Shown here: positions 15,547-54,236 of the stretch, piece by piece
Position numbering within the stretch: position 1 is the first letter of the stretch
Layout: each line of letters begins with the position of its first letter
Assembly: GCF_002238045.1 (NCBI RefSeq)
Contig: NZ_NBYO01000001.1
Coordinates: forward strand, 992,001 to 1,056,000
Length of the DNA: 64,000 nt
DNA from: Notoacmeibacter marinus
GTDB taxonomy: Bacteria > Pseudomonadota > Alphaproteobacteria > Rhizobiales > Rhizobiaceae
Direction of reading: 5' to 3'
The notes under the pieces: model-generated
Databases searched by the model: none
What the model was told of the DNA's origin: nothing
What the model saw: the letters and a program-made list of their open reading frames with translations, nothing else
Made by a program: the position numbers and the translations under genes

Positions 15547-17053
15547 CCCCGCCCGCTGGACACCACACGACGCGGCTTCCTTCGCGGAACGCACCATAGG
15601 CGAAGCCAAGACACCAGAAAAGCGCCCCCTTTTTCGGGAATTGCCCCCGGCTCCGGTCTTTCCAATTGAAGCGTTGGGGCCGCTGAAGGACGCCGCCTTG
15701 GCGGCTCACCAAATGACGCAGGCACCCATTGCGATTGCCGCTCAATCGGTGCTGGCAGCGGCGACGTTGGCCATTCAGGCGCAGCGGAATGTTCGTCTAC
15801 CAGCGGGCGGTTCCAAACCGCTGACAGGGCTGTTCGTATCCGTAGCAGAAAGTGGCGAACGAAAGTCTAGCATTGACCGTATCGCGCTTGATCCCATTCA
15901 CGCGGTCGAACAGGAATGGCGGCGGCAATCCGACGGTGAACGGCTGGCCTATATCAATGCCAAGGAAGCGTGGGACTTTGCCCGCGAACAGGCCAAACGC
16001 AACGCAAAGAACAACCCGGCGGGGCTTCGCAGCGCATTGGACGCAATCGGCCCTGAACCGAAAGCCCCGCCCCACCCAATGCTTCTTGTGTCCGATCCGA
16101 CACCCGAAGCCCTTACTATGCACCTTGCCGAAGGTCGGCCCTTCGCAGGCGTCTTCACCGCCGAAGGTGGAATGCTCATTGGTGGCGCGGCTTTCAGCGA
16201 CGAAAGCAAGATGCGTACGGCGGCGCTGTTGAACATTTTGTGGGACGGTGAACCGATCCGCCGCAAGCGCATAACCACGGGTTCGACCTACTTGCCCGGA
16301 CGGCGATGCAGCGCCCACATCATGCTTCAGCCGGTCGTCGCCGATGAACTATTCGGCAAGAGCCTCTTCGACGGTATCGGATTGACCGCGCGTATGCTCT
16401 TGGTCGCGCCTGAAAGCACGGCGGGAATGCGCCTTTTCCGTGCGCCGCCTGTGTCAGCGTCTAACGCCTTGGCCAACTATGGCGACCGATTACGCCACCT
16501 ACTTCTACGCCCGCCGGTGATGGCGGACGACATGCCCGACGCGCTCAATCCCCCGGCGCTTTCCTTATCCAATGACTCAGCGACGGCTTGGATTGCCTTC
16601 CACGACGAATGCGAACGCGCCATGCGGTCAGACGGGGCGCTGAATCGCATCCGGGCATTCGCCGGGAAACTTGCCGAACATGCGGGAAGATTGGCGGCTG
16701 TCCTGTCCGTCTACCACGACCCCGACACGATGGAAGTTTCGCTGCCTGCCATGCAATGCGGGATTCAGTTAGCATACCACTATGCCAACGAAATGCTTCG
16801 CTTGGCCGATGGCGCGTCCGTTCCCCGCGACCTTCGATCCGCTCAAAAACTGCTTTCATGGTGGCAGTCGTGGGAAAGCCCAATCGTTCATTTGGCGACG
16901 ATCTATCAGCGCGGCCCGTCTGACCTTCGAAATGCCAAGGCCGCAAGAGCAGCGGCACAGACACTTGAAGATCATGGATGGCTTGAACGCCTGTCCCCCG
17001 GAATAGAAGTGGAAGGCAAACCCCGTAAGGAAGCTTGGAGGTTGATACCGTGA
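15536..17053 (+). CDS. DUF3987 (YfjI-like) replication-associated protein
   Basis: A 505-residue protein of the DUF3987 family, a degenerate primase-helicase-like ATPase usually next to or fused with Prim-Pol domains in mobile elements. The P-loop position reads VSVAESGERKSSID, so the classical G-K-S/T is altered to R-K-S as is common in the family. A DEC-containing helix (IAFHDECERAM) lies in the C-terminal part. The ATG at 15536 overlaps the primase stop by 11 bases and is preferred to an upstream TTG/ATG at 15509. Its end overlaps the next gene (GTGA). Confidence 0.83.
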   Translation: MTSDPARWTPHDAASFAERTIGEAKTPEKRPLFRELPPAPVFPIEALGPLKDAALAAHQMTQAPIAIAAQSVLAAATLAIQAQRNVRLPAGGSKPLTGLFVSVAESGERKSSIDRIALDPIHAVEQEWRRQSDGERLAYINAKEAWDFAREQAKRNAKNNPAGLRSALDAIGPEPKAPPHPMLLVSDPTPEALTMHLAEGRPFAGVFTAEGGMLIGGAAFSDESKMRTAALLNILWDGEPIRRKRITTGSTYLPGRRCSAHIMLQPVVADELFGKSLFDGIGLTARMLLVAPESTAGMRLFRAPPVSASNALANYGDRLRHLLLRPPVMADDMPDALNPPALSLSNDSATAWIAFHDECERAMRSDGALNRIRAFAGKLAEHAGRLAAVLSVYHDPDTMEVSLPAMQCGIQLAYHYANEMLRLADGASVPRDLRSAQKLLSWWQSWESPIVHLATIYQRGPSDLRNAKAARAAAQTLEDHGWLERLSPGIEVEGKPRKEAWRLIP

Positions 17054-17514
17054 ACGACGACACGGACCCCGGCGCTAAAGGTGCTAAACCTGCTAACGAA
17101 TTAGCGCCATTAGCAGAATTAGCGGACCTGTCCGACCAACCCGAACGCGGACCGGATGGCCGTTTTCTAACGGGCAATAACGGCGGTAAGCGGCCCAAAG
17201 GCTCACGGAATAAGCTGTCTGAAGTGTTTCTGTCCGCGCTCGCAACCGACTTTCAGGAACACGGCGCAGACGCAATCGAAGCGCTGCGTCTAACCGACCC
17301 CAAGGCGTATCTGCAAATCATCGCGGTCGTGACGGCCAAGGTGCCGTTGGCCGAAGTCAACGTGCAGAACAATACACAGGTACACCAAAACAAGGTCATG
17401 GTGGTAGTTGACCATGGGTCCGATGAAGAATGGGAAGCGAAGCTGCTACGGCAGCAGCGCGCCTTGATGGAAGAAGCTGCTACGCCGAAGGGTAACGAAG
17501 CCTCCGAAACGTAG
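17050..17514 (+). CDS. DUF5681-like small protein
   Basis: A 154-residue protein. A low-complexity acidic N-terminus leads into PDGRFLTGNNGGKRPKGSRN, the conserved GNxGGrPkGsrnk box seen in DUF5681 proteins that accompany phage or island packaging genes, followed by a helical region with IEALRLTDPKAYLQIIAVV. GTG at 17050 is chosen because GGAGGT lies seven bases upstream and overlaps the DUF3987 stop. Such proteins can resemble small-terminase DNA-binding subunits; no large terminase is present here. Confidence 0.68.
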   Translation: MNDDTDPGAKGAKPANELAPLAELADLSDQPERGPDGRFLTGNNGGKRPKGSRNKLSEVFLSALATDFQEHGADAIEALRLTDPKAYLQIIAVVTAKVPLAEVNVQNNTQVHQNKVMVVVDHGSDEEWEAKLLRQQRALMEEAATPKGNEASET

Positions 17515-17800
17515 CGCCCCGCGCCCGTTCCCGTCGCATGATTTCTTCGCGGATACGACGCCAGCGCCCTTGTTCAAACTCTTCCGACCGATACCAAGCA
17601 GCGTGTTCCTCAATGCAGGCCCGTTCGAAAGCACGATCCCTGTCCTGCACCCAAAGCCTGTCAGCTTCGGTCAAGATTTCCTGTCGCGGTATCATGCGCG
17701 GGCGAACTGACCCTTCCCAGAAGCACCATGCGAACGCGCCCCAGATTGGAGATAGGCAAACAATCCAAATCGCGGTTTCAATCCAAGTTTTCAATCCCAT
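17480..17800 (-). CDS. Small membrane protein, hypothetical
   Basis: A 106-residue protein with one N-terminal transmembrane helix (about residues 7-28: IETAIWIVCLSPIWGAFAWC). A charged, Trp/Arg/Glu-rich cytoplasmic tail follows (YRSEEFEQGRWRRIREEIM). It is convergent with the DUF5681-like gene, overlapping its last 35 bases, and divergent from the XRE gene. No family was recognised. Composition and position inside the island support it as a real accessory gene. Confidence 0.55.
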   Translation of the reverse strand: MGLKTWIETAIWIVCLSPIWGAFAWCFWEGSVRPRMIPRQEILTEADRLWVQDRDRAFERACIEEHAAWYRSEEFEQGRWRRIREEIMRRERARGATFRRLRYPSA

Positions 17801-17885
17801 GGCTGCAACACACCAATGTACCTATTGACTACATTATGTTCGTGCAGCACTACGCAACGTACGTAGCAATATTTGTGTCGATAGA

Positions 17886-17898
17886 GAACAAAATGTTC
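17886..17898. promoter_or_regulatory. Palindrome before the XRE start, candidate operator
   Basis: GAAC-AAAAT-GTTC ends 2 bases before the ATG of the XRE regulator. A second imperfect palindrome (CTACG-N7-CGTAG) lies at 17850-17866. Both would suit autoregulation of the defence operon by the encoded repressor/controller protein. Confidence 0.5.
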
Positions 17899-17900
17899 CC

Positions 17901-18248
17901 ATGGATATATTCGCAAAACGGTTACGGGAACGCGCCAAGCAACTCGGCATTTCAAACGCTGAAGCTGCAAGACGTATTGGCTTGGAAGAGCGTAGATATG
18001 CTCACTACGCTTCGGGGCGTCGGGAACCAGACTTGGCAACTCTCAAGTCTATTTCTGAAGTTCTTGGAACAACACCAAACTGGTTGCTTGGCGTCGTCGA
18101 TGCACACGATCAGGAACCAAAGAAGGCGGAACTTGTAGGCCGCTTTGCAAACGCGGCTACTGGAATGGCCGTGGAAGAACTTGAACTATGCGTCATACAG
18201 GCCGAAGCGGTCGTAGCGGCGAAACACTCGAACGGGAATGATGAATAA
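17901..18248 (+). CDS. XRE-family regulator (controller of the restriction operon)
   Basis: A 115-residue protein with an N-terminal cro/cI helix-turn-helix: FAKRLRERAKQLGISNAEAA, the recognition helix around RIGLEERRYAHYASG, and TPNWLLGV. The C-terminal 45 residues are helical and may dimerise. Its stop and the methyltransferase start share one base (TAATG), so they are coupled. By position it plays the role of a C protein, timing expression of modification and restriction after entry of the island into a new cell. Confidence 0.85.
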   Translation: MDIFAKRLRERAKQLGISNAEAARRIGLEERRYAHYASGRREPDLATLKSISEVLGTTPNWLLGVVDAHDQEPKKAELVGRFANAATGMAVEELELCVIQAEAVVAAKHSNGNDE

Positions 18249-20539
18249 TGGCGTACGAAGAAAATCTGGACCGCTTCAAGCGCGAAAACGAAGCCGCGTT
18301 GCAGGGTGGCATCATCGCCTTAGATGAAGATGAGAAGAACGTCATCTATGTCGCCCTGAACAAAAAATACAGGCTAAGCGACCCTGAAGAGTTCGTCCGT
18401 GCAAGCGCCTACGTGTCGTTGGTACTCGACTACGGTTACTCCCAAGAACAAATCGATATCGAATTCACCGTCCCGCACCGTGTCCCAAACATTCATTCGG
18501 ATATCGTTGTCTTCAAGGACAAAGCTAAAAAGACGCCCTACATCGTTGTTGAATGCAAGCGTGAAGAGGCCAGCCAAGGTGAACTGGATCAGGCCGTCGA
18601 ACAGGGCTTCGGGTATGCCAATTCTCTGAAAGCCGATTTCATGTGGATGACGTCAGGCATCCGCAACGATTACTTCAAGGTATCCGGTTTTGGCGGCGCT
18701 GAACGCGTTGAAAACCGGATCGCTGACCTTCCCAAAGAGGGTAAGGAAGAGGCGTCGCGCGCCAAATACACCAAGGGCGGAAAGGACGGCTTTGAACTTG
18801 AGATCGTCGAAGAGAACGAACTTACGCGAAAGTTCAAACAAGCCCATGATGCGTTGTGGGCGGGTGGCAAGCGCAACCCGTCCGAAGCGTTCGACGAACT
18901 CGACAAACTTATCTTCTGCAAAATTTGGGACGAACGGACCAACCGCAAGCCGGGTGAGCCCTACGACTTTCAAGTCTTCACGGACGACAAAGGCGACGAC
19001 CTGAAAAGGCGTATTCAGGCGCTCTACCATAAAGGACGTGAAAAAGACCCCGAAGTTTTCAAGGAAGATATTCGGCTGTCAAATTCGGAGCTTCAAACCG
19101 TTGTTGGTTATCTTGCAGGCACAGACCTTGGCAAGACCGACTTGGACAGCAAAGGCCGCGCTTTCGAAACCTTCATGACCGGCTTTTTCCGAGGCGAGTT
19201 CGGGCAGTATTTTACCCCTCGCAACATCGTCAAGTTCATCGTCGACGCCTTGCCGATCAATCACGATTCTGTCGTGATCGACACATCATGCGGCAGCGGC
19301 GGATTCCTGCTACATGCGCTGGACAAGGTACGCCGTGAAGCCGACAAAATGGCGGAAGACGGCTACTTCGAACTGGCATCGGTCCAGCACCACAAGCATT
19401 GGCACGACTTCGCCGAAAACAATCTCTTCGGCATTGAGATTTCCGAAGGCATCGCCCGAACGGCAAAGATGAACATGATCATCCATGATGATGGTCATAC
19501 CAATGTTATTGCTTTCGACGGGCTTGAGTCTATCGACACAATGCGCGACCGGACGAAGAACCAAGGCTTCAAACCCAACAGTTTTGACTACATCATCACC
19601 AACCCGCCTTTTGGCGCGAAGGTGAAATTGAACGAAAAGCGTTATCTTGAAGACTATGACCTTGGCTGCAAGGACGTCGATTGGATCGATGCCAAGCTGA
19701 AGAACATCACGGTCAAACAGAAGAAGGTTGGCGAAAAAGACTTCATCCGCCGCACCCTCTTGGACAAGGCGCGCGACCAACAGACAACCGAGGTGCTATT
19801 TATCGAACAATGCCACCGCTTCCTGAAGCCGGGCGGTTACATGGCGATGGTCATCCCGGATAGCATCCTGACCAATTCCAGCATGCAGTATGTGCGCGAC
19901 TGGATCGAAGAGCATTGGCGCATTGTCAGCGTCGTTTCACTTCCCCAGTTTGCCTTCGCGGCCAACGGTGCCGGTGTGAAGAGTTCCGTTCTGTTCCTGC
20001 GCAAGCACGACGATGCAACCACCATCGCCATTCAGCGCGCCAAAGAAAAGGCGCAAGACGATATCCATGCCCGCAAGGACGGCGGCAAGGCACTGGAAAA
20101 GCTGATCAAGGAAAAGGCAGCGAAGCTGAAGAAGGGCGATGCCACCATTCAGCAAATCGACGAAGAGCTTGTGGCCAAACTGGGTGCATTGGACGCCCAA
20201 GGCAATCTAACCACGGATGCCAAGCGCAAGCTGAAGGCTGAAGCAGACAAGGCTAAGAAGGCGCATGAGGCCACCGAAGCCTATCAACAATGGAAAGCCG
20301 CAACATCGGAAGAATACAATGAGCGTATCGCTACCTTACGCGAAACGCTGAACGACGAATTCTTGGCCGAAGTGAAGGCGAAAGTTAATGACTATGAAAT
20401 CTTCATGGCGATTGCCGAAGACATTGGCTACGATGCAACCGGACGACCAACCGGCGCGAACGAACTTGATACTGTTTCGCGGGAACTGAGCCGTTTTATC
20501 CAACATGTCGAAAGCGGGGTGCCGCGCCCTTTTGCCTAA
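18248..20539 (+). CDS. Fused restriction-modification subunit: HsdR-type nuclease domain plus N6-adenine methyltransferase
   Basis: A 763-residue protein. Residues about 45-135 form a PD-(D/E)XK nuclease domain like that at the HsdR N-terminus: D85 (HSDIVVF), E102 and K104 (VVECKRE), then Q110. The HsdM part follows, with SAM motif I TSCGSGGF near 345 and catalytic NPPF near 452-455. The C-terminal third (about 600-720) is rich in Lys/Glu/Ala helices, probably coiled coil. No separate HsdR helicase gene exists here, so together with the specificity subunit downstream this resembles BcgI-like type IIB systems rather than classical type I. It should methylate and cleave the same target. Confidence 0.9.
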   Translation: MAYEENLDRFKRENEAALQGGIIALDEDEKNVIYVALNKKYRLSDPEEFVRASAYVSLVLDYGYSQEQIDIEFTVPHRVPNIHSDIVVFKDKAKKTPYIVVECKREEASQGELDQAVEQGFGYANSLKADFMWMTSGIRNDYFKVSGFGGAERVENRIADLPKEGKEEASRAKYTKGGKDGFELEIVEENELTRKFKQAHDALWAGGKRNPSEAFDELDKLIFCKIWDERTNRKPGEPYDFQVFTDDKGDDLKRRIQALYHKGREKDPEVFKEDIRLSNSELQTVVGYLAGTDLGKTDLDSKGRAFETFMTGFFRGEFGQYFTPRNIVKFIVDALPINHDSVVIDTSCGSGGFLLHALDKVRREADKMAEDGYFELASVQHHKHWHDFAENNLFGIEISEGIARTAKMNMIIHDDGHTNVIAFDGLESIDTMRDRTKNQGFKPNSFDYIITNPPFGAKVKLNEKRYLEDYDLGCKDVDWIDAKLKNITVKQKKVGEKDFIRRTLLDKARDQQTTEVLFIEQCHRFLKPGGYMAMVIPDSILTNSSMQYVRDWIEEHWRIVSVVSLPQFAFAANGAGVKSSVLFLRKHDDATTIAIQRAKEKAQDDIHARKDGGKALEKLIKEKAAKLKKGDATIQQIDEELVAKLGALDAQGNLTTDAKRKLKAEADKAKKAHEATEAYQQWKAATSEEYNERIATLRETLNDEFLAEVKAKVNDYEIFMAIAEDIGYDATGRPTGANELDTVSRELSRFIQHVESGVPRPFA

Positions 20540-20551
20540 GCCCCGGCGTCG

Positions 20552-20570
20552 ATGAAGAACGGTTCTTCAT
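20552..20570 (+). repeat. Perfect inverted repeat between the methyltransferase and specificity genes
   Basis: ATGAAGAAC-G-GTTCTTCAT has 9-bp perfect arms and, as RNA, an 8-bp stem with a CGG loop. It lies 12 bases after the methyltransferase stop and exactly where the specificity gene should start. It could be an operator, a translational control hairpin or a frameshift stimulator. Confidence 0.6.
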
Positions 20571-20628
20571 AGTCAGTTGGGGCAAACTTGAACGTAGGCA
20601 TGATGCCCGCTTCTACCTTCCGCACTTT

Positions 20629-21957
20629 GTGCGGTTGGAAGAAAAGGTGCGCTTAAAGACCAATAGAAAACTTCGGGATTTTTGCTTGGCGTTGGCGGGC
20701 GGGGCGACGCCCAAGGCGGAAGAGAAGGAACTGTACTACTCCGATGACCCTGAAACGGGCATTCCTTTCATCCGTGTACAGAACCTGAATACTAATGGTG
20801 ATCTTGATGCAAACGACGTCAAATTGATCAACGAGGCAACGCATAGCGGAATGCTTGCGCGTAGCCATGTTCAAGAAAATGACCTTTTGGTGAAGATCAC
20901 GGGCGTTGGCCGTATGGCCGTTTCGTCGGTGCCGCCCGTAGGTTTTGTGGGCAACATCAATCAGCATATTGCACGCGCAAAAACCCGAAGCAGGCTGGAA
21001 AGCCGGGCGCTTGCTGCGTTCCTTAACACCGACATTGGTGAAGCGTTGGCCACACGCCGAGCAACAGGGGGAACACGACCGGCACTCGACTATCCCGCCC
21101 TTCGATCCATCCCGATCATATACAACGAAGCAATATTGTCAGTCATGGACAACGGGAACACTCGTCGTAAAGTGGCCTTGGACAAGGCCGACGCGCTACT
21201 TGCGTCAATCGACGATTACCTGCTTTCCGAACTTGGCATCGTGCTTCCGCCTGAACAGGAAAACACCATAGCTAACCGCATGTTCCGGGTGTCTATGCAT
21301 GAAGTTCAGCTACGGCACGACCCTAACTTCTTTGGACGAAAATACGTTCATCTGACAGAAGCAATAACCGCCCACCCTTTCAAACTCTTGCGGGATATCT
21401 GCTCATTTTCTTCCGAGGCTTGGGATCAGAGAACCGGTTACGAAGGCACGTTCCCCTATTTGGAAATCTCGGCAATTGACTTGAAGACCGGAGATGTTAC
21501 TGAAATTTCGGACACATCAATTGAAGAAGCGCCAAGCCGTGCCCGAATGGTTGCGCGACCGCACGACATACTTGTTTCGACAACGCGACCTTCGCGTGGG
21601 GCAATAACACTCGTTCCGCAGGAACAATCCCCTTTCATCGCATCAACGGGGTTTGCGGTAATCCGCGATGTCGATACGAGCTTGATTGATCGCGAGTATT
21701 TATACCACCTCCTACGTTCAAAGTTGGGGCTGACGCAGATGGAACAGCGCTCAAGTGGTGGTAACTATCCTGCAATAACGCCATCTGAGTTAAAGCGCAT
21801 CGAAATCCCGCTTCCTGAATTGAATACGCAAACGCGCATTGTCGCGGAAATCCAGAAACGGAAATCGGCGGCCCTTTCGATGCGTCAAGAGGCAAACGCC
21901 GAACTGGAAAAAGCCAAGGCAGAGATCGAAGCAATCTTGTTGGGGGATGCCGCATGA
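20629..21957 (+). CDS. Restriction system specificity subunit (HsdS-like)
   Basis: A protein of at least 442 residues with two target-recognition domains: the first with GGATPK and PFIRVQNL, the second starting near residue 230 with PFIAS-TGFAVIRD and NYPAITPSELKRI. Helical conserved regions and a C-terminal helix follow. GTG at 20629 is the first canonical start, but family-like sequence (VSWGKLERRHDARFYLPHF) already begins about 50 bases upstream in the same open frame, which stays open back to 20470 without ATG, GTG or TTG. The true start is therefore uncertain: an ATA start, a one-base indel after the ATG at 20552, or a -1 frameshift from the methyltransferase gene are possible. Confidence 0.85.
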   Translation: MRLEEKVRLKTNRKLRDFCLALAGGATPKAEEKELYYSDDPETGIPFIRVQNLNTNGDLDANDVKLINEATHSGMLARSHVQENDLLVKITGVGRMAVSSVPPVGFVGNINQHIARAKTRSRLESRALAAFLNTDIGEALATRRATGGTRPALDYPALRSIPIIYNEAILSVMDNGNTRRKVALDKADALLASIDDYLLSELGIVLPPEQENTIANRMFRVSMHEVQLRHDPNFFGRKYVHLTEAITAHPFKLLRDICSFSSEAWDQRTGYEGTFPYLEISAIDLKTGDVTEISDTSIEEAPSRARMVARPHDILVSTTRPSRGAITLVPQEQSPFIASTGFAVIRDVDTSLIDREYLYHLLRSKLGLTQMEQRSSGGNYPAITPSELKRIEIPLPELNTQTRIVAEIQKRKSAALSMRQEANAELEKAKAEIEAILLGDAA

Positions 21958-23444
21958 GCACGGTTTTCAATGGTGCCTTTGCGACATCAATGGGTAGCTA
22001 CCTGACTATTCGGGGATACGCTCGTCTGAACGACATAGCCACCTGCTCTTTTGCCAATTCCGAGTACCAGCGTGATCTGAAGAAAGATCATGTTGAAGAA
22101 ATAGAGAGGTTCTTTCAAATCGGCGAAGACCTTTTCTTTCCAGAAATCGTGCTGTCCGTGCCCTTGGAAACTGAACTGGAGCAAGGTGAAAACTGGGCTG
22201 AAAAGATTGATCCGCTTAGGACACTTTTGGAAGGAAAGCGGTTTGCATCAAAAGAAGCCGGTATTGATATAAGGCCAAGGGCGCAAAAAGGAAGAAATGA
22301 CCTTCGACGCTATGACATATTTGTCGGTGATGAAAAGAAGCCGTTCAGGCGCATTGATGGAAACCATAGACTTGCTGCGTTCGAAGCTCTCACCGATCTT
22401 TCATCAGACTATTTGTCCCCTTTTTGCATCTTGCTTTTCAACCACGATAATGCTCGCCGAAATGAAAAGGCGTTGTTCCACAACATCAATTCTAAAGCAT
22501 GGCCGCTGACTTCAGAGGAAACGTATAAAGGCATTATTGATTTTAGAAACGACTTCCCAGACGATGTGCTTGAGGAGCGTTTCGGTCTAGAATACCTTCA
22601 ATGCCGCCAACTCAAAGACCGGCTGGACTTCACCTACCTGTCCAACCTAAAGAACGTTTTCGGCAAGAACAAAGGGCAAGACGAATGCGCCCGGTCTGTG
22701 CTCATCCAGTCCTTGCAGGACGTTCGCAAACAAACTGACCCGAAGGCCGCACTTGACCCCGAAGCCGTATTCGAAGCGATCAAACGCATTAATGACACCT
22801 ACGGCGACAAACGATTGCAGGCGTGCACCGCACAAGGGCTGTTCGCGGCGTGCCTGTTTTTCCAATTGAGTGGCGACCGTTCGCGCGGAACCTATGAGCA
22901 GTTCACCAATTGGGTATTGCGAACGCACCAATACGAACTGCAATCGATCCATGCGGCGGACCTGATAAAGATTTTCGGCAAGATTGCCCAATCGCGCAAA
23001 CGCCAAGTGTTTGTGTCTATGCAGTTCAGCGAAGACACCAAACCGAACTTCGATGCCATTAAAAGCGCGGTCGATGATCTGAACAAGGCTCACGAACTCG
23101 ACATCGAAATCCGGCCAATCCGTATCGACCAATTCGACACCGGCTATTCCTACGAAATCAACGCCGAAGTGTTACGTTTGATCGAAGATTCCGGCCTTCT
23201 GATTGCAGACCTCACGCACGGCAACAAAAACGTCTATCAGGAAATCGGCTACCTTATGGGCCTGAACCAAGGCAAAGGGCTTGCGCACGAGAACTTCCTT
23301 CTCATCCACAATGGTTCGATTGGTGATGCCAAGAAGGATATTGGATTCAACATTGCCGGGATCAAGCAATTGCGCCTGAACGACACCAACGCGCTTCGCG
23401 AAGCGGTGAAGGATCAGGTCTCGAAATTTTATGGTTTGGGGTGA
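21954..23444 (+). CDS. DGQHR/ParB-like domain protein fused to nucleoside-deoxyribosyltransferase/TIR-like domain
   Basis: A 496-residue two-domain protein. The N-terminal half carries a DGQHR-type motif, RRIDGNHRLAAFEAL (DGNHR at 135-139), and the downstream LFHNINSKAWPL element typical of the DndB/DGQHR group. From about residue 348 there is a Rossmann-like domain with FVSMQFSED, a mid strand ending SYEINAEVLRLIEDSG, LIADLTHGNKNVYQEIG and a final LLIHN strand. That pattern is shared by nucleoside 2-deoxyribosyltransferases and related TIR-like NAD-consuming effectors, with Glu in NVYQEIG as the probable catalytic acid. The ATG overlaps the specificity stop (ATGA). A DNA-state sensor joined to a nucleotide-degrading effector is an inference. 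Confidence 0.75.
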   Translation: MSTVFNGAFATSMGSYLTIRGYARLNDIATCSFANSEYQRDLKKDHVEEIERFFQIGEDLFFPEIVLSVPLETELEQGENWAEKIDPLRTLLEGKRFASKEAGIDIRPRAQKGRNDLRRYDIFVGDEKKPFRRIDGNHRLAAFEALTDLSSDYLSPFCILLFNHDNARRNEKALFHNINSKAWPLTSEETYKGIIDFRNDFPDDVLEERFGLEYLQCRQLKDRLDFTYLSNLKNVFGKNKGQDECARSVLIQSLQDVRKQTDPKAALDPEAVFEAIKRINDTYGDKRLQACTAQGLFAACLFFQLSGDRSRGTYEQFTNWVLRTHQYELQSIHAADLIKIFGKIAQSRKRQVFVSMQFSEDTKPNFDAIKSAVDDLNKAHELDIEIRPIRIDQFDTGYSYEINAEVLRLIEDSGLLIADLTHGNKNVYQEIGYLMGLNQGKGLAHENFLLIHNGSIGDAKKDIGFNIAGIKQLRLNDTNALREAVKDQVSKFYGLG

Positions 23445-23454
23445 GGGTTAGGAT

Positions 23455-25344
23455 ATGGACGCGAAGGCACATGATCTGAATTTTGTTCTTGGACAACGGC
23501 AACAATGGGTCGTGCCTGTCTATCAGCGCCATTATGAGTGGGAAACGGACGCTGACAAACAAATTCCAAAACTGTGGGATGATCTTCGCGACAAGGCCGT
23601 TGAACGGTTGGAGGAAGACCGCACTCCATTGCCGCACTATTTCGGTGCGATAATATACGCTGAACCAAGCAAGCAGGCATTTGGAGTGGTACCGCTTCGT
23701 TTTCTGGTAGATGGCCAACAACGAATAACGACGTTTCAGATCGTGCTTGCCGCAATTCGTGAGGCGGCTCGCAAACTCGATATCAAGCATCTAATCGAAG
23801 TTGCAAACACCTATCTGTTCAACGACGAAAACAAGGGCATGAAGGACGCCGAAAAGGAGCGCTTCAAGCTTTGGCCGTCGGCATATGACCGCGACTTGTT
23901 TCAGAAAATCGCCACCGAAGAATATGCGGAAGTAGTAGCGTCATTCACGCCAAGGTATTTTCACGGCACGGGGCGTGTCAAGAAGGGCGGCACGCCCAAG
24001 CTTTTGCTCGCCTACCACCATCTACACACCGAAATAGCTAGCTTCGTTGCTGATCGCGTAGAGGTGGGCGACGATGCCGAAGCCGTGCTTGGCGCACTGC
24101 TTGAAGGCTTTCTCGCCGGGTTTCAAATTGTAATAATTCAACTGGACGAGAACGACGACGCGCAAGAGATTTTCGCTTCACTGAACGGGCTGGGCAAGCC
24201 GCTAGCACCTTTCGACCTTATCCGAAACAGCGTCTTCCACCGTGCGCGCAAGCTTGGGGAAGACGATGAAAAGCTATTCGATGGTCGGTGGAAGTTATTC
24301 GAAGAGCCGTTTTGGTCAGACGAAGTACGGCAAGGGCGACTAAAACGGGCGCGGGCAGACCACCTTATCGCACATACAGTTGTCGCTGAGACCGCAAGGG
24401 ATGCCAATATCGGTAAAATCGCAACAGAATATCAGCATTATGCCCGCGACCGCGCCTTTCCGACAGTTGCGGAAGAATTGGATGTGCTTATCAGCCATGC
24501 CAAAAATTATCGGCTTCTTGAAGAGGCCAAGGAAGGCTCTAACGTTGGGCGCATTTCCAATGTTTTAAAGACTTGGGACTTATCGACCTTCCATCCCTTC
24601 GTTTTGTGGGTTCTCAGCTACGTTCCCGACGAAAGCGAACTACGAAAAATCCTTGAGCTTCTTGAAAGCTATCTGGTGCGCCGCGAGCTATGCGGACTGA
24701 CCACGAAGAACTACAACAAGGTCACAACAAGTTTCATCCGTGCCGCAAAATCCACACCGGATGCATTCAACGCTTTCAGCAAGCACATGGCGTCGATGAC
24801 AGGCGACATATCGAGAATGCCGACGGACGCCCAAGTGAAGGAAGCCGTGCTGCGTCGCAAAGCCTACGCATTGATCCCGACACCCCGACTCCGGTTCATC
24901 CTTCAAAACGTGGAATACGATCTTCGTGACAAATTCGACGAAGTGACCGTTTCGACCTCAAACCTGACCATCGAACATTTGATGCCCCGCAAGTGGGCTG
25001 AACATTGGCCCCTAAGTGACGGAAGCAATGCGTCCCACGAATCAAGTTTCGAAGCGATGATTGCGGGTGTGCCCATGGATGACGCTATGAAAGCTCTGGT
25101 CGAAACCCGCGCTCAAGCAGTGGACACGATAGGAAATCTCACGCTCATAACGGGTTCACTGAACCCAAGTTTGGGCAACGCCGGTTGGGTGAAAAAGCGC
25201 GAAAAGCTGTCCGGTTCGCTGCTCGCCCTAAACCGCATGGTCGCGAAGGTCGAAGACTGGACCGAAAAGAGCATCGAAGCGAGAGCCGGGGCAATTGGCG
25301 ACGTGATTGTCACTCGCTGGGACGCGCCAACAATCGACGAGTGA
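23455..25344 (+). CDS. GmrSD-like DUF262/DUF1524 nuclease (type IV restriction)
   Basis: A 629-residue protein with the single-chain GmrSD layout. The N-terminal DUF262 domain has VVPVYQRHYEW near residue 19 and the DGQQR motif (FLVDGQQRITTF, near 85) that binds or hydrolyses NTP in this family. A helical middle follows. The C-terminal DUF1524 His-Me/HNH nuclease has IEHLMPRKWAEHW near 505 and DTIGNLTLITGSLNPSLGN near 557. Known relatives cut DNA carrying modified cytosines. It starts 11 bases after the preceding gene, so it belongs to the same transcript as the restriction genes, an unusual pairing of modification-dependent and modification-sensitive restriction. Confidence 0.88.
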   Translation: MDAKAHDLNFVLGQRQQWVVPVYQRHYEWETDADKQIPKLWDDLRDKAVERLEEDRTPLPHYFGAIIYAEPSKQAFGVVPLRFLVDGQQRITTFQIVLAAIREAARKLDIKHLIEVANTYLFNDENKGMKDAEKERFKLWPSAYDRDLFQKIATEEYAEVVASFTPRYFHGTGRVKKGGTPKLLLAYHHLHTEIASFVADRVEVGDDAEAVLGALLEGFLAGFQIVIIQLDENDDAQEIFASLNGLGKPLAPFDLIRNSVFHRARKLGEDDEKLFDGRWKLFEEPFWSDEVRQGRLKRARADHLIAHTVVAETARDANIGKIATEYQHYARDRAFPTVAEELDVLISHAKNYRLLEEAKEGSNVGRISNVLKTWDLSTFHPFVLWVLSYVPDESELRKILELLESYLVRRELCGLTTKNYNKVTTSFIRAAKSTPDAFNAFSKHMASMTGDISRMPTDAQVKEAVLRRKAYALIPTPRLRFILQNVEYDLRDKFDEVTVSTSNLTIEHLMPRKWAEHWPLSDGSNASHESSFEAMIAGVPMDDAMKALVETRAQAVDTIGNLTLITGSLNPSLGNAGWVKKREKLSGSLLALNRMVAKVEDWTEKSIEARAGAIGDVIVTRWDAPTIDE

Positions 25345-25431: not shown

Positions 25432-25480
25432 TGGCGCACCCGAGAGGATTCGAACCTCTGGCTTCCGCCTTCGGAGGGCG
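25432..25480. repeat. attR within tRNA-Arg(CCG)
   Basis: The right copy of the 49-bp repeat. It covers the 3' half of the intact tRNA gene and differs from attL at two positions, one of them in the acceptor stem. Confidence 0.9.
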
Positions 25481-25508
25481 GCGCTCTATCCAGCTGAGCT
25501 ACGGGTGC
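25432..25508 (-). tRNA. tRNA-Arg (anticodon CCG)
   Basis: A 77-base gene with encoded CCA. The acceptor stem GCACCCG pairs with CGGGTGC, the D arm contains AGCTCAGCTGGATAGAGC, the anticodon stem CCGCC/GGCGG encloses loop CTCCGAA (anticodon CCG, reading CGG), and the T arm contains GGTTCGAATCC. It serves as the integration site of the island to its left and stays intact because the element carries the same 3' sequence. Confidence 0.96.
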
Positions 25509-42075: not shown

Positions 42076-42091
42076 AGTTTCACGTGAAACA
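42076..42091. promoter_or_regulatory. parS site (one mismatch) downstream of secB
   Basis: AGTTTCACGTGAAACA differs from the parS consensus TGTTTCACGTGAAACA only at the first base. It lies between the secB stop and its terminator, about 10 kb from parAB. Confidence 0.85.
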
Positions 42092-43568: not shown

Positions 43569-44417
43569 TCACGCATGGCGATCGAGATCCGCGACGAGCT
43601 GTTCACGCAGGGCCGGCGTAACTGCCGGACGGACACCGAACCAGCGTTCAAAACCCGGAACGGCTTGATGCAGCAACATTCCGAGCCCATCCACCGTTCG
43701 AAAACCTTGTCGTTCCGCGGCATTGAGGAGCGAGGTTTTCAGCGGCGTATAGACAATGTCGGTCACGGTCGCGCCATCGGCCAAACGTTCAAGACCCGGC
43801 CATGGCCGTTCATCCATCTGTTCGCCCATCGTCAGCGACGTCGTGTTCACCACGAGATTGGCATCGCGATAAAGATCCGGATCATCGAGCGCGACCGCAC
43901 GGCAAGGTCCGCCAAACCGATCGGCCAGGCGCTGCGCGCGATCCGGTGTCCGGTTGGCGATATTGACGGCGGCGAACCCCCTTTCGATCAGTGCGTGAAC
44001 GATGGCAAGTGCAGCGCCGCCGGCACCAAGAACAAGGGCGCGGCCACCAGCGCGATCCCAGTCGGGCGCGTGTTCGTCCAGATTGGCGGCAAAGCCATAC
44101 GTATCGGTATTGTCGCCGATCAGGCGATCTCCTTCCCGCCACACCGTATTGACGGCGCCGATGGTTCTGGCTGTATCGGTTAGGCGATCCAGATGGGCAA
44201 GAACCGTCTCCTTGTGCGGGATCGTGACATTGCATCCGGCCATCGCGCCATCACGCATGGCGGCGACGAACGATATAAGATCAGCCGGCGAAATATCATG
44301 GGCGTCGTATCGCCCGTCGATCCGATGCCGCGCCAACCAGCTTCTGTGAATCAGGGGCGACCGGCTATGGCCGATGGGATGGCCGATCACGCCGGCCCGA
44401 ATGATCGTCTCAGTCAT
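43569..44417 (-). CDS. aroE: Shikimate dehydrogenase
   Basis: NADPH-dependent reduction of 3-dehydroshikimate in aromatic amino acid synthesis. The 282-residue protein has [20 protein letters not shown], catalytic Lys-Asp in [10 protein letters not shown] and GDNTDTYGF, and a nucleotide-binding [17 protein letters not shown]. Its ATG overlaps the maf stop by 8 bases; coaE follows at once. Confidence 0.96.
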
Positions 44418-45009
44418 CGATCGCTCCCATGGCGCGAAGCTGCGTCAGCAATGGCAAAAGGGGCAGGCCGACAATCGTCCAGTAATCGCCGTCGATCCGC
44501 TCGAAAAGCTGAATGCCGGGCCCCTCGATCTGGTAGGCGCCGACGCTGCCGAGAACCGCTTGACCGGCAAGGGCGAGATAACGGCCGATAAAACCGGGAT
44601 CGAGATCGCGCATGGTCATCTCGGCGACACTCACATGACGCCAAAGGGTTTTGCCACCGCGGCATAGGGCGAGCCCGCTATTGAGCCGGTGCGTCTTTCC
44701 GGACAGTTGCAGAAGCCGGCGGCGCGCCTCCTCGAAATCACGGGACTTGTGCAGGGTCTCCCCTTCAAGGGAGAGGACCTGATCGGCGCCGAGAACCAGC
44801 GCGTCCGGATGGCGTTCCGAAACCGCCATGGCCTTGGCCTCGGCCAGAATGAGCGCCAGATCGTCCGGCCCGGTTCCCGGTCCTTCTAATGCGGTATCGA
44901 TGGCCCGCTCGTCGATGTTGGCCGGCTCCGCCAGGACCGACAGCCCAGCCTGTTCGAGCATGGCGCATCGCCAGGGGCTTGCGGAAGCGAGGATCAGCGT
45001 TTTTTTCAT
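44410..45009 (-). CDS. maf: Maf-family nucleoside triphosphate pyrophosphatase
   Basis: A house-cleaning pyrophosphatase for non-canonical or modified nucleotides. The 199-residue protein has [16 protein letters not shown] (the family SxSxRR-type loop with R to W-R variation), [12 protein letters not shown] with the catalytic Asp, and [20 protein letters not shown]. It heads the leftward maf-aroE-coaE run and abuts the putative origin region. Confidence 0.94.
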
Positions 45010-45350
45010 TCGACGGGCCTCTTATCGGCTTTCGCGACGGTTAGCCGGCGAACCGAATCGCCGCAAGACCGGGCGGATCGAAAAGGAAAGCGGGAGTCCA
45101 GACGGGTTGGTAAGGATTTGTTAACTTCTCCCCGCTGCAATGGGCTGCATGTGAATCGCTGGGGGCAGCGGTCGAGGGCGAGAGCGGCTCGCCCGACCCG
45201 CATGAATAACCCTCAGCTTTCTCCACAATCAGCCCCAGGATGGATGCGTTTTCCCTGCGTGTGGAACTCCGGGGAAAGAAGCCTTGCCCTCCACAATATC
45301 TCCGACCTGTATGCGAGCGCGTCGGTCCAACGACAACCCCATTCAAATGA

Positions 45351-45365
45351 TTAAGAAAGTCTTAA
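45351..45365. promoter_or_regulatory. CtrA-binding motif TTAA-N7-TTAA
   Basis: TTAAGAAAGTCTTAA matches the full CtrA consensus exactly and is also a near palindrome. In the maf-hemE gap it could block initiation of replication, as in Caulobacter, or regulate hemE. Confidence 0.7.
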
Positions 45366-45491
45366 TGCGGCGAGCCCTTGTCCCCGCTCCTCGTTCCACG
45401 ATATGGCCTTTCTCCAGAATATCCGATTTTCGGCGGACCGTTGGGGACAAACGATAATCCCAGACACTCACCGACTCATAGAATCAACAAT

Positions 45492-45512
45492 CTCCCTTCG
45501 GGAGTTTTCTTT
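45492..45512 (+). terminator. Intrinsic terminator-like hairpin upstream of hemE
   Basis: CTCCC-TTC-GGGAG followed by TTTTCTTT, 45 bases before the hemE GTG. It could end transcripts leaving the origin region or act as an attenuator for hemE; no leader peptide is evident. Confidence 0.65.
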
Positions 45513-45557
45513 AGAGATTTGGGTGGGATAGTCATCCATGTCAGAGCGAGGATCAAA

Positions 45558-46607
45558 GTGACGAAGACAGATCGTATCGTGCTCGACGTGTTGAAGGGTC
45601 AAACCGCCCCGACACCGCCGATCTGGATCATGCGCCAAGCCGGACGTTATCTGCCGGAATATCGGCAGACCCGGCAGACAGCCGGTTCTTTTCTCGATCT
45701 CTGTTACAATCCGGAACTGGCAAGCGAAGTCACGCTGCAGCCGATCCGGCGGTTCGGATTCGATGCGTCGATCCTGTTCTCCGATATTCTGACCGTGCCG
45801 CATGCGCTCGGACGCGACCTGCGCTTCGAGGAAGGCAGAGGGCCGCTCATGACGCCGATCGAGCCGGAAGAGATCGACGGGCTTTCGAACATTGGCGGAT
45901 TTCACGACAAGCTCGCGCCAGTTTACCAGACTGTCGGTAGGCTTCGTACCGAGTTGCCTGCAGAGACGACGCTACTCGGCTTTTGCGGCGCGCCGTGGAC
46001 TGTCGCCACCTATATGATCGCTGGCCATGGTACGCCCGACCAGGCCCCTGCCCGGTTGTTCCTCTATCGGCATCCGGAGCGGATGGATGCGCTTCTGACC
46101 CTTCTTGCGGCGCGTTCGGCCGAATATCTGATCCGGCAGATCGAAGCTGGTGCGGATGCCGTCCAGATCTTCGACTCCTGGAGCGGTGTTCTGGATGAAG
46201 CCAGCTTCGAACGCTGCTGCGTTCGGCCCGTGCGCTCCATTGTCGAAGCCATTCGAAAGCGCTTTCCCGATGTTCCGATCATCGGGTTTCCAAAGGGCGC
46301 TGGTGCCGCCTATGACGATTATCGGCAGAAGACGGGCGTCGATGCGCTCGGTCTCGACTGGTCCGTTCCCTTGTCGCAGGCACAGCGCCTGCAGAAGGAT
46401 GGGCCCGTGCAGGGCAATCTCGATCCGTTGCGGCTCGTTGCCGGCGGAACGGCGCTGGATGAAGGTGTCGACGCGATCTTGAACGCGCTGGCCGACGGGC
46501 CGTTTATCTTCAATCTGGGTCATGGGATCACACCGCAAACGCCGATTGAGAATGTGCAGCGGATGATCGATCGTGTACGGGCATGGCCATCAAGCGCAAA
46601 CGGGTAA
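45558..46607 (+). CDS. hemE: Uroporphyrinogen decarboxylase
   Basis: Decarboxylates uroporphyrinogen III to coproporphyrinogen III in heme synthesis. The 349-residue protein has the N-terminal signature [16 protein letters not shown], the catalytic Asp in [27 protein letters not shown], and [12 protein letters not shown] with the conserved His near the end. GTG at 45558 preceded by GAGG is the start; the frame is open upstream through the origin region but carries no family sequence. Followed after 3 bases by hemJ. Confidence 0.97.
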
Positions 46608-48666: not shown

Positions 48667-49971
48667 ATGGATACCATCTTTGCGCTCTCTTCCGGCGCTC
48701 TGCCGAGCGGTGTTGCCATTGTCCGCATGAGCGGAGAGGGCGTGGACCAGGCTTTCCCGGCGTTTGGTCTTCACCGTCCGGAACCCCGCTCGGCGTCACT
48801 GCAGACATTCCTGATCGGAACGGAGGCGATCGATCGGGCCTTGGTGCTGTTCTTTCCTGCGCCACGCAGCTTCACAGGCGAAGATTGCGCGGAATTTCAC
48901 CTGCATGGCAGCCCGGCCATTCTCGCCGCCGTGCTGGGGCATCTCTCGACACTCGCGCACTTTCGGCCAGCCGAGCCCGGCGAGTTCACCCGTCGGGCCT
49001 TCGCCAATGGCCGAATGGATCTGACGGAAGCCGAAGCGCTCTCTCAACTGATCGATTCGGAAACCGAAGCGCAGCGCCGGTTGGCGATGTCGGGCGCTGC
49101 TGGCCGTCAACTGGCCATGATCTCTACGTGGCAGCGCAGTTTGACGGGGCTTCGGGCCCGGCTCGAAGCCGAGATGGATTTTTCCGATGAGGGCGATGTA
49201 CCGGCCAACGTTTCGGACGCAGCACGCCAATCGCTGTGTGACCTGATCGATGTGATGAACCGCCACAACCGGGCTTTTGCGGGTGCGGAGATCGTTCGCC
49301 GTGGCTTTCGGGTCGCCCTTACCGGCCGTCCAAATGCTGGAAAATCGAGCCTGCTAAACCGGTTGGCTGGTCGTGATGTCGCGCTCGTAACGGAAATTCC
49401 CGGTACGACTCGCGACCGCCTTGAGGTCGCTCTCGATCTCCAAGGGTATAAGGTGATCCTGGCCGACTTGGCTGGTTTGCGCGATACGGACGACAGAGTT
49501 GAGCGCATGGGCGTGGATCTGGCGAAGAAGACGGCTGGTGATGCGGACCTGGTTCTGTGGATGGACGATAATGAGAACGAGCCGGACGATCCGGGTTTTG
49601 CCGATGGGGCAATTCTTGTTCGCAGCAAGGCCGATACGGGGGCTCAGACCGCACATGGCGAGAACTGGATCGCCGTGTCGAGCCGAACCGGGGAGGGGAT
49701 CGAAGCGCTGCTATCAGCGATTGCAGGCCGGCTGCGGGACCATCTCCCGAAGGAGGATGCTTTACCGCCGGCGACAGAACGCCAGCGCCATCATCTCGCC
49801 GCTGCCATCGAGCACTGTGAGAGCGCCGTTCAACAATGGGAACATGCGCCGCTCGAGATCATTGCCGAGGATCTCCGCGCTGCGAGTTTCGCGTTGGGTC
49901 GCCTCGTTGGACAGGTCGACGCTGAAAACGTATTGGATGATGTCTTCGGGCGATTTTGCATTGGAAAGTGA
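48667..49971 (+). CDS. mnmE: tRNA modification GTPase MnmE (TrmE)
   Basis: With MnmG it forms 5-carboxymethylaminomethyluridine at tRNA wobble U34. The 434-residue protein has the N-terminal folate-binding domain, FTGEDCAEFHLHGSPAI, a G domain with GRPNAGKSSLLNRLAGRDVAL, GTTRDRLE and a DLAGLRDT switch, and the terminal FCIGK cysteine motif. Its stop codon lies inside the first of three parS sites, and mnmG follows. Confidence 0.97.
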   Translation: MDTIFALSSGALPSGVAIVRMSGEGVDQAFPAFGLHRPEPRSASLQTFLIGTEAIDRALVLFFPAPRSFTGEDCAEFHLHGSPAILAAVLGHLSTLAHFRPAEPGEFTRRAFANGRMDLTEAEALSQLIDSETEAQRRLAMSGAAGRQLAMISTWQRSLTGLRARLEAEMDFSDEGDVPANVSDAARQSLCDLIDVMNRHNRAFAGAEIVRRGFRVALTGRPNAGKSSLLNRLAGRDVALVTEIPGTTRDRLEVALDLQGYKVILADLAGLRDTDDRVERMGVDLAKKTAGDADLVLWMDDNENEPDDPGFADGAILVRSKADTGAQTAHGENWIAVSSRTGEGIEALLSAIAGRLRDHLPKEDALPPATERQRHHLAAAIEHCESAVQQWEHAPLEIIAEDLRAASFALGRLVGQVDAENVLDDVFGRFCIGK

Positions 49972-50043
49972 TTCACGTGAAACACGTCCCAGAATGATTC
50001 ACGTGAAACAATATGGAACTTGATGGCTGATTCACGTGAAACA
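49969..50043. promoter_or_regulatory. Cluster of three parS sites between mnmE and mnmG
   Basis: TGATTCACGTGAAACA occurs at 49969-49984, 49995-50010 and 50028-50043, identical copies one mismatch from the consensus parS. The first overlaps the mnmE stop and the third ends at the base before the codon preceding the mnmG ATG. They lie 2.5 kb from parA and should load ParB. Confidence 0.9.
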
Positions 50044-51916: not shown

Positions 51917-52509
51917 TGGCTGTTTCACGTGAAACAGAAGCGTATCTGACGCAGTATGAAACTTTGTTCCGGACCTGGAATGCGCGAATCAATCTGGCAT
52001 CGTCCGCGACGTTGAGTGATTTTCGCGCTCGACATATCGAAGACAGTCTTCAGTTGCTCCATTTGGCGAAGGCGGGAAGGCAATGGATCGACCTTGGATC
52101 CGGAGGCGGCCTGCCGGGCATTCCACTCGGGATCGCGCTCGCGGAGCAAGACGGCGCTCACATCCATCTGGTCGAGAGCAATCGCAAAAAGACGGCATTT
52201 CTCCTTAGTTGCGTGGCGCAGTGTCGCGCCGCCGCGAGCGTTCATCCCGTGCGGATCGAGGTGGCGTCAGAGCAGGTGACGAAGGTCGACTACGTCACGG
52301 CTCGCGCTCTGGCTCCGCTTACCGATCTTCTGTCGCTTGCTGAGCCTTGGCTTTCGAACGGCGCAGTCGGTCTCTTTCACAAGGGGCGCAGCCATGAAGG
52401 GGAGATTGCTGACGCCAAAAGCCGCTATTCTTTCGAAATGACTGTGCATCAGAGCCTCATTGATCAAGAAAGCGTCATTCTGCGGATTCAAAATCCCGTT
52501 CGTTTGTGA
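51916..52509 (+). CDS. rsmG: 16S rRNA (guanine-527 N7) methyltransferase RsmG (GidB)
   Basis: Methylates G527 of 16S rRNA using SAM. The 197-residue Rossmann protein has WIDLGSGGGLPGIPLGIALA and IHLVESNRKKTAFL, then YVTARALAPLTDLL. ATG 51916 overlaps the mnmG stop (TGATG). Codons 3-8 (VSRETE) are encoded by a perfect parS site, so the protein N-terminus is dictated by the centromere sequence. Confidence 0.95.
   Translation: MAVSRETEAYLTQYETLFRTWNARINLASSATLSDFRARHIEDSLQLLHLAKAGRQWIDLGSGGGLPGIPLGIALAEQDGAHIHLVESNRKKTAFLLSCVAQCRAAASVHPVRIEVASEQVTKVDYVTARALAPLTDLLSLAEPWLSNGAVGLFHKGRSHEGEIADAKSRYSFEMTVHQSLIDQESVILRIQNPVRL
51921..51936. promoter_or_regulatory. Perfect parS site inside rsmG
   Basis: TGTTTCACGTGAAACA, the full 16-bp consensus palindrome, within the first codons of rsmG and 617 bases before parA. 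Confidence 0.95.
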
Positions 52510-52553
52510 TTTAACCAAAACTGAACAATTTGACGTCCGATGCGGAGGCAAGC

Positions 52554-53339
52554 ATGCGCATCATTACGATCGCCAATCAAAAGGGCGGGGTCGGCAAGAC
52601 AACGACGGCCATCAATCTCGGCACCGCCTTGGCTGCAACCGGGCAACGCGTCCTGCTTGTCGATGTCGATCCGCAGGGCAACGCCAGTACCGGGCTCGGC
52701 ATCGAACGCGAGGAGCGGCTGATCAGCGCTTATGATGTGCTGCTCGGTAACCATGGCATAGCGGAAGCGGCCATACCGACAGCCGTGCCGGGCCTCCATG
52801 TCGTCGCTTCGACCATGGATCTGCTTGGTGTCGAGATGGAAATTTCCGGCGACAAGGACCGCGCGATGAAGCTGAAGCATGCTTTGCGCGCGGCGCGGAT
52901 CACCGGGGTCAACTACGATTATGTTCTGGTCGACTGTCCGCCCTCGCTCAACCTGCTGACGCTCAACGCCATGGCCGCGGCGGATTCCGTCCTCGTTCCG
53001 CTGCAGTGTGAGTTCTTCGCCTTAGAAGGCCTGAGCCAGCTTCTGCGAACCGTGGAGCAGGTTCGCCAGACGATTAATCCGAGCCTGAGTATTCAGGGCA
53101 TTGTTCTGACGATGTTCGACCGGCGCAACAATTTGTCCAATCAGGTGGTTGAAGATGTCCGGGAACATATGGGCGAGAAGGTCTACAATACCGTTATTCC
53201 GCGAAATGTCCGGGTTTCCGAGGCGCCATCGCATGGCAAGCCGGCCATTCTCTACGATCTGAAATGCACGGGCAGCCAGGCCTATCTTCAACTGGCGTCC
53301 GAGGTGATCCGCCGCGAACGCCAGCTGCAGGCAGCATAG
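52554..53339 (+). CDS. parA: Chromosome-partitioning ATPase ParA
   Basis: A DNA-bound Walker-type ATPase that moves ParB-parS complexes. The 261-residue protein starts with RIITIANQKGGVGKTTTAIN (deviant Walker A), with LLVDVDPQGNASTGLG and YVLVDCPPSLNLLTLNA. ATG 52554 is preferred because GGAGG lies six bases upstream; the frame start at 52530 would add eight residues. Four bases separate it from parB. Confidence 0.97.
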   Translation: MRIITIANQKGGVGKTTTAINLGTALAATGQRVLLVDVDPQGNASTGLGIEREERLISAYDVLLGNHGIAEAAIPTAVPGLHVVASTMDLLGVEMEISGDKDRAMKLKHALRAARITGVNYDYVLVDCPPSLNLLTLNAMAAADSVLVPLQCEFFALEGLSQLLRTVEQVRQTINPSLSIQGIVLTMFDRRNNLSNQVVEDVREHMGEKVYNTVIPRNVRVSEAPSHGKPAILYDLKCTGSQAYLQLASEVIRRERQLQAA

Positions 53340-53342
53340 GAG

Positions 53343-54236
53343 ATGTCGATGATGAATGATGATGCTCCGAGAAAGCGGCTCGGCCGTGGTCTGGCCGCGT
53401 TGATCGGCGAGATCGACCCGCCGGCGAATGAGACGCCCGCGCCCGTGGCCGCGCCACCTGCCGATGGACGAATGGCCATCGATCGCATCGTTCCGAACAG
53501 TCGCAATCCGCGCCGTCATTTCAACGAAGATGAGATTGCCGACCTTGCGCAATCGATCCGCGCGCACGGTCTTGTTCAGCCTGTCGTCGTTCGTCGCCAA
53601 CGTGGAAATTCCGACCGGTTCGAGCTGATCGCCGGCGAGCGCCGCTGGCGCGCTAGCAAGATGGCGGGTCTGACGGAGGTGCCGTATCTGCTTCGGGACG
53701 TCGACGACCGAACCGCACTGGAACTTGCGATCATCGAAAATGTGCAGCGGGCCGATCTCGATCCGATCGAAGAAGGGCATGGCTATCAGGCTCTGATCGC
53801 GGAGCATGGCTACTCGCAGAACGATCTTGCAGGCGTGATCGGCAAAAGCCGCAGCCATGTCGCCAACACACTGCGCCTCCTGCGCCTGCCGGAGAGCGTA
53901 CAGGCCATGCTGAGCGATGGCCGTCTCTCCGCCGGTCATGCGCGGACGTTGATCACCGCTGCGGAGCCGGAAGCCCTGGCGAAACGGATCGTCGATCAGG
54001 GTCTGACCGTTCGCCAAGCCGAAGCAATCGCCCAGGGCGAGGCGGAAGAAGGCGTCAAGCCGCGTAAGGAGCGGCTCGAAAAGGACGATGCCGTGGCAGC
54101 ACTCGAGCAGCGATTGGCGCAAAGCCTTGGTCTGAAGACCCGTATCACCCCATCGAAAAAGGGTGGCGAGGTACGGCTGAAATATCGCAGCCAGGATGAA
54201 CTCGACCAGTTACTCAGCCGGCTGTTTAGTGAATAG
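53343..54236 (+). CDS. parB: Chromosome-partitioning protein ParB
   Basis: A parS-binding CTPase clamp. The 297-residue protein has the N-terminal ParA-stimulating segment KRLGRGLAALIGE, the CTP-binding ELIAGERRWRASKMAG and ALIENVQRADL-type motif (here ELAIIENVQRADLDPIE), the helix-turn-helix YSQNDLAGVIGKSRSHVANTL, and a C-terminal dimerisation domain ending with DQLLSRLFSE. All elements are present. Confidence 0.97.
   Translation: MSMMNDDAPRKRLGRGLAALIGEIDPPANETPAPVAAPPADGRMAIDRIVPNSRNPRRHFNEDEIADLAQSIRAHGLVQPVVVRRQRGNSDRFELIAGERRWRASKMAGLTEVPYLLRDVDDRTALELAIIENVQRADLDPIEEGHGYQALIAEHGYSQNDLAGVIGKSRSHVANTLRLLRLPESVQAMLSDGRLSAGHARTLITAAEPEALAKRIVDQGLTVRQAEAIAQGEAEEGVKPRKERLEKDDAVAALEQRLAQSLGLKTRITPSKKGGEVRLKYRSQDELDQLLSRLFSE

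Follow-up and report, generated by a model that had tools for sequence, protein, structure and literature searches.

The maf-hemE gap of Notoacmeibacter marinus as the probable chromosomal origin of replication, with a CtrA box and a family-wide sequence element

The window analyzed here is a stretch of 64,000 nucleotides of Notoacmeibacter marinus DNA (C1:992,001-1,056,000; genome of 3.29 Mb in three contigs). It contains a 548-bp intergenic gap at 45,010-45,557, with maf on one side and hemE directly on the other. These flanks had been named in an earlier note made from the sequence alone, and the coordinates and Pfam (Maf, 5.5e-45; URO-D, 2.9e-114) agreed with it. The gene order runs through an mltA-like gene, Smr, Tim44, fxsA, secB, dnaQ, coaE, aroE, and maf to the gap and continues with hemE, hemJ, rho, mnmE, mnmG, rsmG, parA, and parB; Smr, Tim44, FxsA, Maf, HemE, HemJ, ParA, and ParB were named by Pfam, and the remaining neighbors by inspecting their translations. 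The host belongs to the Hyphomicrobiales, in a GTDB family that, according to the names of related loci, also contains Rhizobium, Mesorhizobium, and Brucella, and the nearest named relative of its HemE is that of a Notoacmeibacter MAG (78% identical). An Rfam search of the 64-kb window returned tRNAs only. At 17,001-25,000, a segment of lowered GC content (0.49-0.54) and strong AT skew reaches near a tRNA-Arg (25,432-25,508) and looks like a possible acquired island. The gap and the genes and partition sites around it are the following.

42,076-42,091, plus strand: parS-like site, one mismatch
44,410-45,009, minus strand: maf
45,010-45,557, no strand: the entire maf-hemE gap, probable oriC (skew minimum, skew switch, conserved sites)
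45,558-46,607, plus strand: hemE, GTG start at 45,558
49,969-50,043, plus strand: three parS-like sites (49,969; 49,995; 50,028), one mismatch each
51,921-51,936, plus strand: perfect parS, TGTTTCACGTGAAACA
52,530-53,339, plus strand: parA (AAA_31, 1.8e-62)
53,343-54,236, plus strand: parB (ParB_N, HTH_ParB, ParB_C)

The hemE side is an established site of alphaproteobacterial origins (PMC1914354). Cumulative GC skew of the window reached its minimum at 45,499, within the gap, and keto skew at 45,496. When genome-wide skew was calculated from 56 sampled stretches (1.09 Mb, one third of the genome, from a draft assembly), nearly all samples on C1 were negative from 1 to 980 kb and nearly all were positive from 1,040 to 1,695 kb (the contig end), while nearly all samples on C2 and C3 were negative. 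The window thus held the sole sustained negative-to-positive switch among the sampled stretches, with a weak amplitude (1-4%), some samples of opposite sign, and the three contigs not joined. GC skew was among the checks that the earlier note had put forward for its reading of the gap as a putative oriC, and the extremum was found in the gap itself and not far from it. The distance from the gap to the parS sites and parAB is 3-9 kb. The dnaA gene is at C1:515,673, 521 kb away, which indicates that the origin is not located at dnaA; such a distance is usual for the hemE-type alphaproteobacterial class.

The gene ppsR, which the earlier note had described as absent beside the gap, is indeed lacking there and from the entire genome. 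The domain PF03618 was found in 165 of 199 genomes of the order, 46 of 61 relatives, and 0 of 3 genus members. Its place next to the gap, as the ppsR/COG1806 neighbor, is a usual but not obligatory mark of a hemE-type origin. Since maf directly adjoins the gap, with ppsR missing, in 25 of the 105 family origins, the absence is a recurrent gene loss that left the origin in place and is not an anomaly of this origin. In a more distant relative (L002), maf is still followed by ppsR and then a gap of about 390 bp. Disappearance of the usual target enzyme as the reason for the loss was rejected, because pyruvate phosphate dikinase is still encoded. A maf-ppsR-oriC-hemE locus of Rhizobiaceae type is also held by a sequence titled Bacillus subtilis (L014, JAHREI010000001.1), probably a mislabelled or contaminated assembly.

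Exact matches to the strict DnaA box TTATCCACA were found neither in the gap nor in the 64-kb window, as the earlier note had stated for the gap, and the TCCACA cores it described were located at 45,222, 45,290, and, on the minus strand, 45,260. Allowing up to two mismatches, the gap contains three DnaA-box-like 9-mers, all weak sites, against 0.62 expected (P = 0.023). This count was matched by 0.8% of genome tiles, and all three motif counts of the gap together were reached by 0 of 1,966 tiles. When the window species was aligned with the two other genus members (G199 and G200), the fixed sequence comprised the CtrA half-sites, TTTCTCCACA/TTTGTCCACA, TTGTCCCC, TTGGGGA, the block around TTTGTTAACTTCTCCCCGCTG, four of the five GANTC sites, and most of 45,464-45,539, and much of the intervening sequence was variable. 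The DnaA-like sites, the CtrA box, and a further conserved block are arranged as follows.

45,118-45,136, plus strand: conserved block around TTTGTTAACTTCTCCCCGC, nearly invariant in the three genus members
45,219-45,227, plus strand: DnaA-box-like TTCTCCACA, one mismatch; kept in G200, TTGTCCACA in G199
45,260-45,265, minus strand: DnaA-box-like core (TGTGGA on the plus strand), conserved in part across the genus
45,290-45,295, plus strand: TCCACA core, not conserved in the genus
45,351-45,365, plus strand: perfect CtrA box TTAAGAAAGTCTTAA (TTAA-N7-TTAA), 204 nt upstream of the hemE reference point (45,555)
45,378-45,385, plus strand: TTGTCCCC, weak DnaA-box-like, invariant in the genus; similar to the Caulobacter W-box TCCCCA
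45,394-45,399, plus strand: TTCCAC, the start of the conserved TCCACGATATGGC block
45,442-45,450, minus strand: TTGTCCCCA, weak DnaA-box-like, two mismatches

The perfect CtrA box is thus present in the gap as claimed. The pattern occurs 23 times in the 3.29-Mb genome, giving an expectation of about 0.003 boxes in the gap; it is just 1.5 times commoner than its reversed control (15 matches), so that a single match is weak by itself. All eight TTAA letters are kept in the three genus members, and the genome encodes CtrA (81% identity to a Caulobacter query). Among 27 origins from other families of the Hyphomicrobiales, one or two per family, 13 carry a perfect box (0.36 expected by shuffling; two with the reversed pattern), and seven of these boxes stand 190-254 nt from hemE. 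The box at -204 in the window occupies this same place, and it recurs at -204 in G291. Within the family but outside the genus, perfect boxes were found in 6 of 102 origins (0.87 expected), and the difference from 13 of 27 has a Fisher P of 1e-6, which is overstated because the sequences are related. This distribution fits a CtrA box that was seemingly common across the order, disappeared from most of this family, including S. meliloti and Brucella, and was kept in this genus, with regain possible. Such a loss agrees with the S. meliloti oriC, where the CtrA motif is absent and CtrA is not bound (PMC4433202), and with B. abortus, where CtrA is reportedly not bound to the origin (PMC2877005). 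CtrA is an established repressor at the Caulobacter origin (PMC4285127), and in Hyphomonas neptunium CtrA binds near the origin (PMC7200025). The family may therefore offer a testable natural experiment in the rewiring of CtrA control of replication.

The same S. meliloti and B. abortus reports, together with the single box and its weak genome-wide enrichment, lend some plausibility to another reading, in which the gap serves as oriC with an inactive CtrA box, and CtrA influences replication solely by an indirect route, as it does in S. meliloti. We regard this as a serious possibility that falls short of even chances; the conservation of the box in the genus, its position in G291, and the excess of perfect boxes in other families of the order argue against it. 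A link between ppsR loss and the CtrA box, which the first 81 loci had suggested, was dropped in the larger set, in which the box was found outside the genus in 3 of 22 ppsR-less origins and 3 of 80 origins with ppsR; two of the three ppsR-less origins with a box are AT-rich. An Aurantimonas origin without ppsR (L042) has a perfect CtrA box, TTAAGGAAGCGTTAA, about 382 nt upstream of hemE.

The hemE-proximal part of the gap contains an element shared by nearly the whole family, which overlaps the least stable DNA of the gap and two of five GANTC sites.

45,055-45,059, no strand: GANTC site 1 (GAATC), kept in 3 of 3 genus members
45,094-45,098, no strand: GANTC site 2 (GAGTC), kept in 3 of 3 genus members
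45,153-45,157, no strand: GANTC site 3 (GAATC), kept in 3 of 3 genus members
45,469-45,489, plus strand: family element CACCGACTCATAGAATCAACA (consensus ACMGASTCNNAGAANNANAA), score 16/21, proposed start of strand opening
45,473-45,477, no strand: GANTC site 4 (GACTC), within the element; GA[C/G]TC in 99 of 102 family gaps
45,481-45,485, no strand: GANTC site 5 (GAATC), within the element; kept in 70 of 102 family gaps
45,473-45,522, no strand: 50-mer with the lowest stability in the gap, a candidate duplex unwinding element (nearest-neighbor dG -61.7 kcal/mol)
45,492-45,504, plus strand: short hairpin CTCCCTTCGGGAG with a T tract, within the genus-conserved block 45,464-45,539

Matches of at least 15 of 21 positions to CACAGACTCTAAGAATCAGAA were present in 102 of 105 family gaps (those bounded by maf or ppsR), compared with two for the reversed control and none for the reverse complement, mostly 46-106 nt upstream of the hemE reference point; the consensus was derived from the first 80 loci, whose species overlap with the later set, so the test is not fully independent. 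A stricter pattern, ACNGANTCNNAGAANNANAA, matched 27 of 61 relatives, in single copy in nearly all (control pattern, two matches), and the matches that were compared lay a few hundred nucleotides away from ppsR or immediately upstream of hemE. Outside the family, it was found in one genome only; in the window genus, where the copies differ at the end, it has no match. Positions A1, C2, G4, A5, T7, C8, A11, A13, A14, A17, and A20 are fixed or nearly fixed, and position 6 is C or G only, which accounts for a GANTC site in 99 of the 102 elements. The element serves as a simple sequence tag marking oriC throughout the GTDB Rhizobiaceae. Two loci without it, L212 (G277) and L237 (G353), have a hemE that does not adjoin maf or ppsR, suggesting that either hemE or the origin has moved.

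Within the gap, duplex stability is lowest over the element and the AT-rich tract that follows; the 50-mer listed above is less stable than 99.7% of the 50-mers of the window, and the skew minimum is adjacent. We consider the element the likely site of strand opening. A more specific reading is put forward only tentatively: ACMGASTCNNAGAANNANAA and the T-rich downstream tract would be a hitherto undescribed element, common to the whole GTDB family, at which the origin opens and which DnaA or a different protein recognizes, and its near-fixed CcrM site might correspond to the Dam sites within the unwinding repeats of E. coli. The restriction of the N in its GANTC to C or G is tighter than CcrM needs and counts against the methylation half of this reading. 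It is unlikely that the element is mainly a promoter or leader of hemE, with the opening site elsewhere in the gap. Its AT-richness, its position 40-110 nt upstream of hemE, a weak -10-like TAGAAT, and the downstream hairpin with a T tract in the genus would suit such a role. However, a sigma-70-type promoter was not found in a search there, the first and last T that define a -10 vary across the family while other bases are fixed, and both the skew minimum and the lowest stability fall at the element. An RNA fold of the conserved leader before hemE was no better than shuffles.

GANTC methylation sites are present as the earlier note described, although there are five and not the four it counted. 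Their density in the gap is about six times that of the genome, and at least five sites occur in just 0.1% of 545-bp tiles. The composition of the gap predicts 3.8 of the five, which indicates that the gap merely escapes a genome-wide GANTC depletion, and enrichment was rejected as stand-alone evidence for this reason. The genome encodes a CcrM (71% identical to a Caulobacter query). A methylation role for the GANTC in the family element is possible but not favored, because Caulobacter controls initiation without needing CcrM (PMC3973325), and in Agrobacterium the DnaA-dependent ori1 was not significantly affected when CcrM was depleted (PMC11514494). The sole three family elements lacking a GANTC site are those of L270 (G226), L277 (G322), and L267 (G330).

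Skew, synteny, parS and parAB, the family element, and the conserved CtrA and DnaA-like sites converge on the gap. Together, these independent lines of evidence make it very probable that the gap is the oriC of the chromosome, as the earlier note proposed. That the origin lies elsewhere and the gap is merely a hemE/maf promoter region close to a skew inflection is, despite the weak skew, the draft assembly, and the missing strict DnaA box, very improbable given this convergence. We hold with high confidence that the gap would act as the single DnaA-dependent origin of the chromosome. DnaA would bind the loose cluster of weak sites at 45,219-45,450, and the duplex would open at the hemE-proximal unstable segment containing the family element, from 45,469 to about 45,530. 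Replication would then proceed bidirectionally, and ParB at the parS sites 3-7 kb away would segregate the new origins. Phosphorylated CtrA on the box at 45,351, within the DnaA cluster, probably reduces initiation in non-replicating cells, as in Caulobacter.

Compared with known systems, an ordinary hemE-type alphaproteobacterial oriC is a well-supported assignment, whose modest new points are the apparently retained CtrA box and the family-wide element. Like the Caulobacter crescentus Cori, the gap lies beside hemE and away from dnaA, and it combines several GANTC sites and weak boxes of the TCCCC type with a TTAA-N7-TTAA box placed among putative DnaA sites. However, it has one perfect CtrA box where Cori has several, the ppsR/COG1806 neighbor is gone, the G-box TGATCCACA was not seen in the gap, and the sequence of the unwinding region differs. 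With the hemE origins of Sinorhizobium meliloti and other Rhizobiaceae it shares the neighborhood and the ACMGASTC..AGAA element upstream of hemE, whereas the S. meliloti origin is without CtrA motif or binding and most relatives retain ppsR. The origins of Anaplasmataceae (Wolbachia, Ehrlichia) have likewise kept the hemE neighbor and not COG1806; their other neighbor is COG1253 after rearrangement, whereas here it is maf, after ppsR loss. As in the DnaA-trio/BUS origins of Bacillus subtilis and others, an unstable element with A spaced at 3 nt on one strand stands beside weak DnaA-like sites. Under the published BUS rule (PMC8287927), a DnaA box must have, no more than 16 bp away and on the correct strand, three or more 3'-NAN-5' trios in a row. 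On the polarity-correct strand the window has a run of two, so that membership was rejected; at least three consecutive trios occur in only 3 of 102 family elements. At the same place, other families of the order have TAATCCAC followed by A-rich, sometimes AAC/AAT-repeated sequence, and its T-rich opposite strand recalls, by analogy only, the E. coli unwinding element, which is bound by DnaA as a T-rich single strand (PMC5742627). In three loci from other Hyphomicrobiales families (L309, L310, and L313), the last 95 nt before hemE contain AAC/AAT trinucleotide runs immediately after a TAATCCA-like or a CCACAG box.
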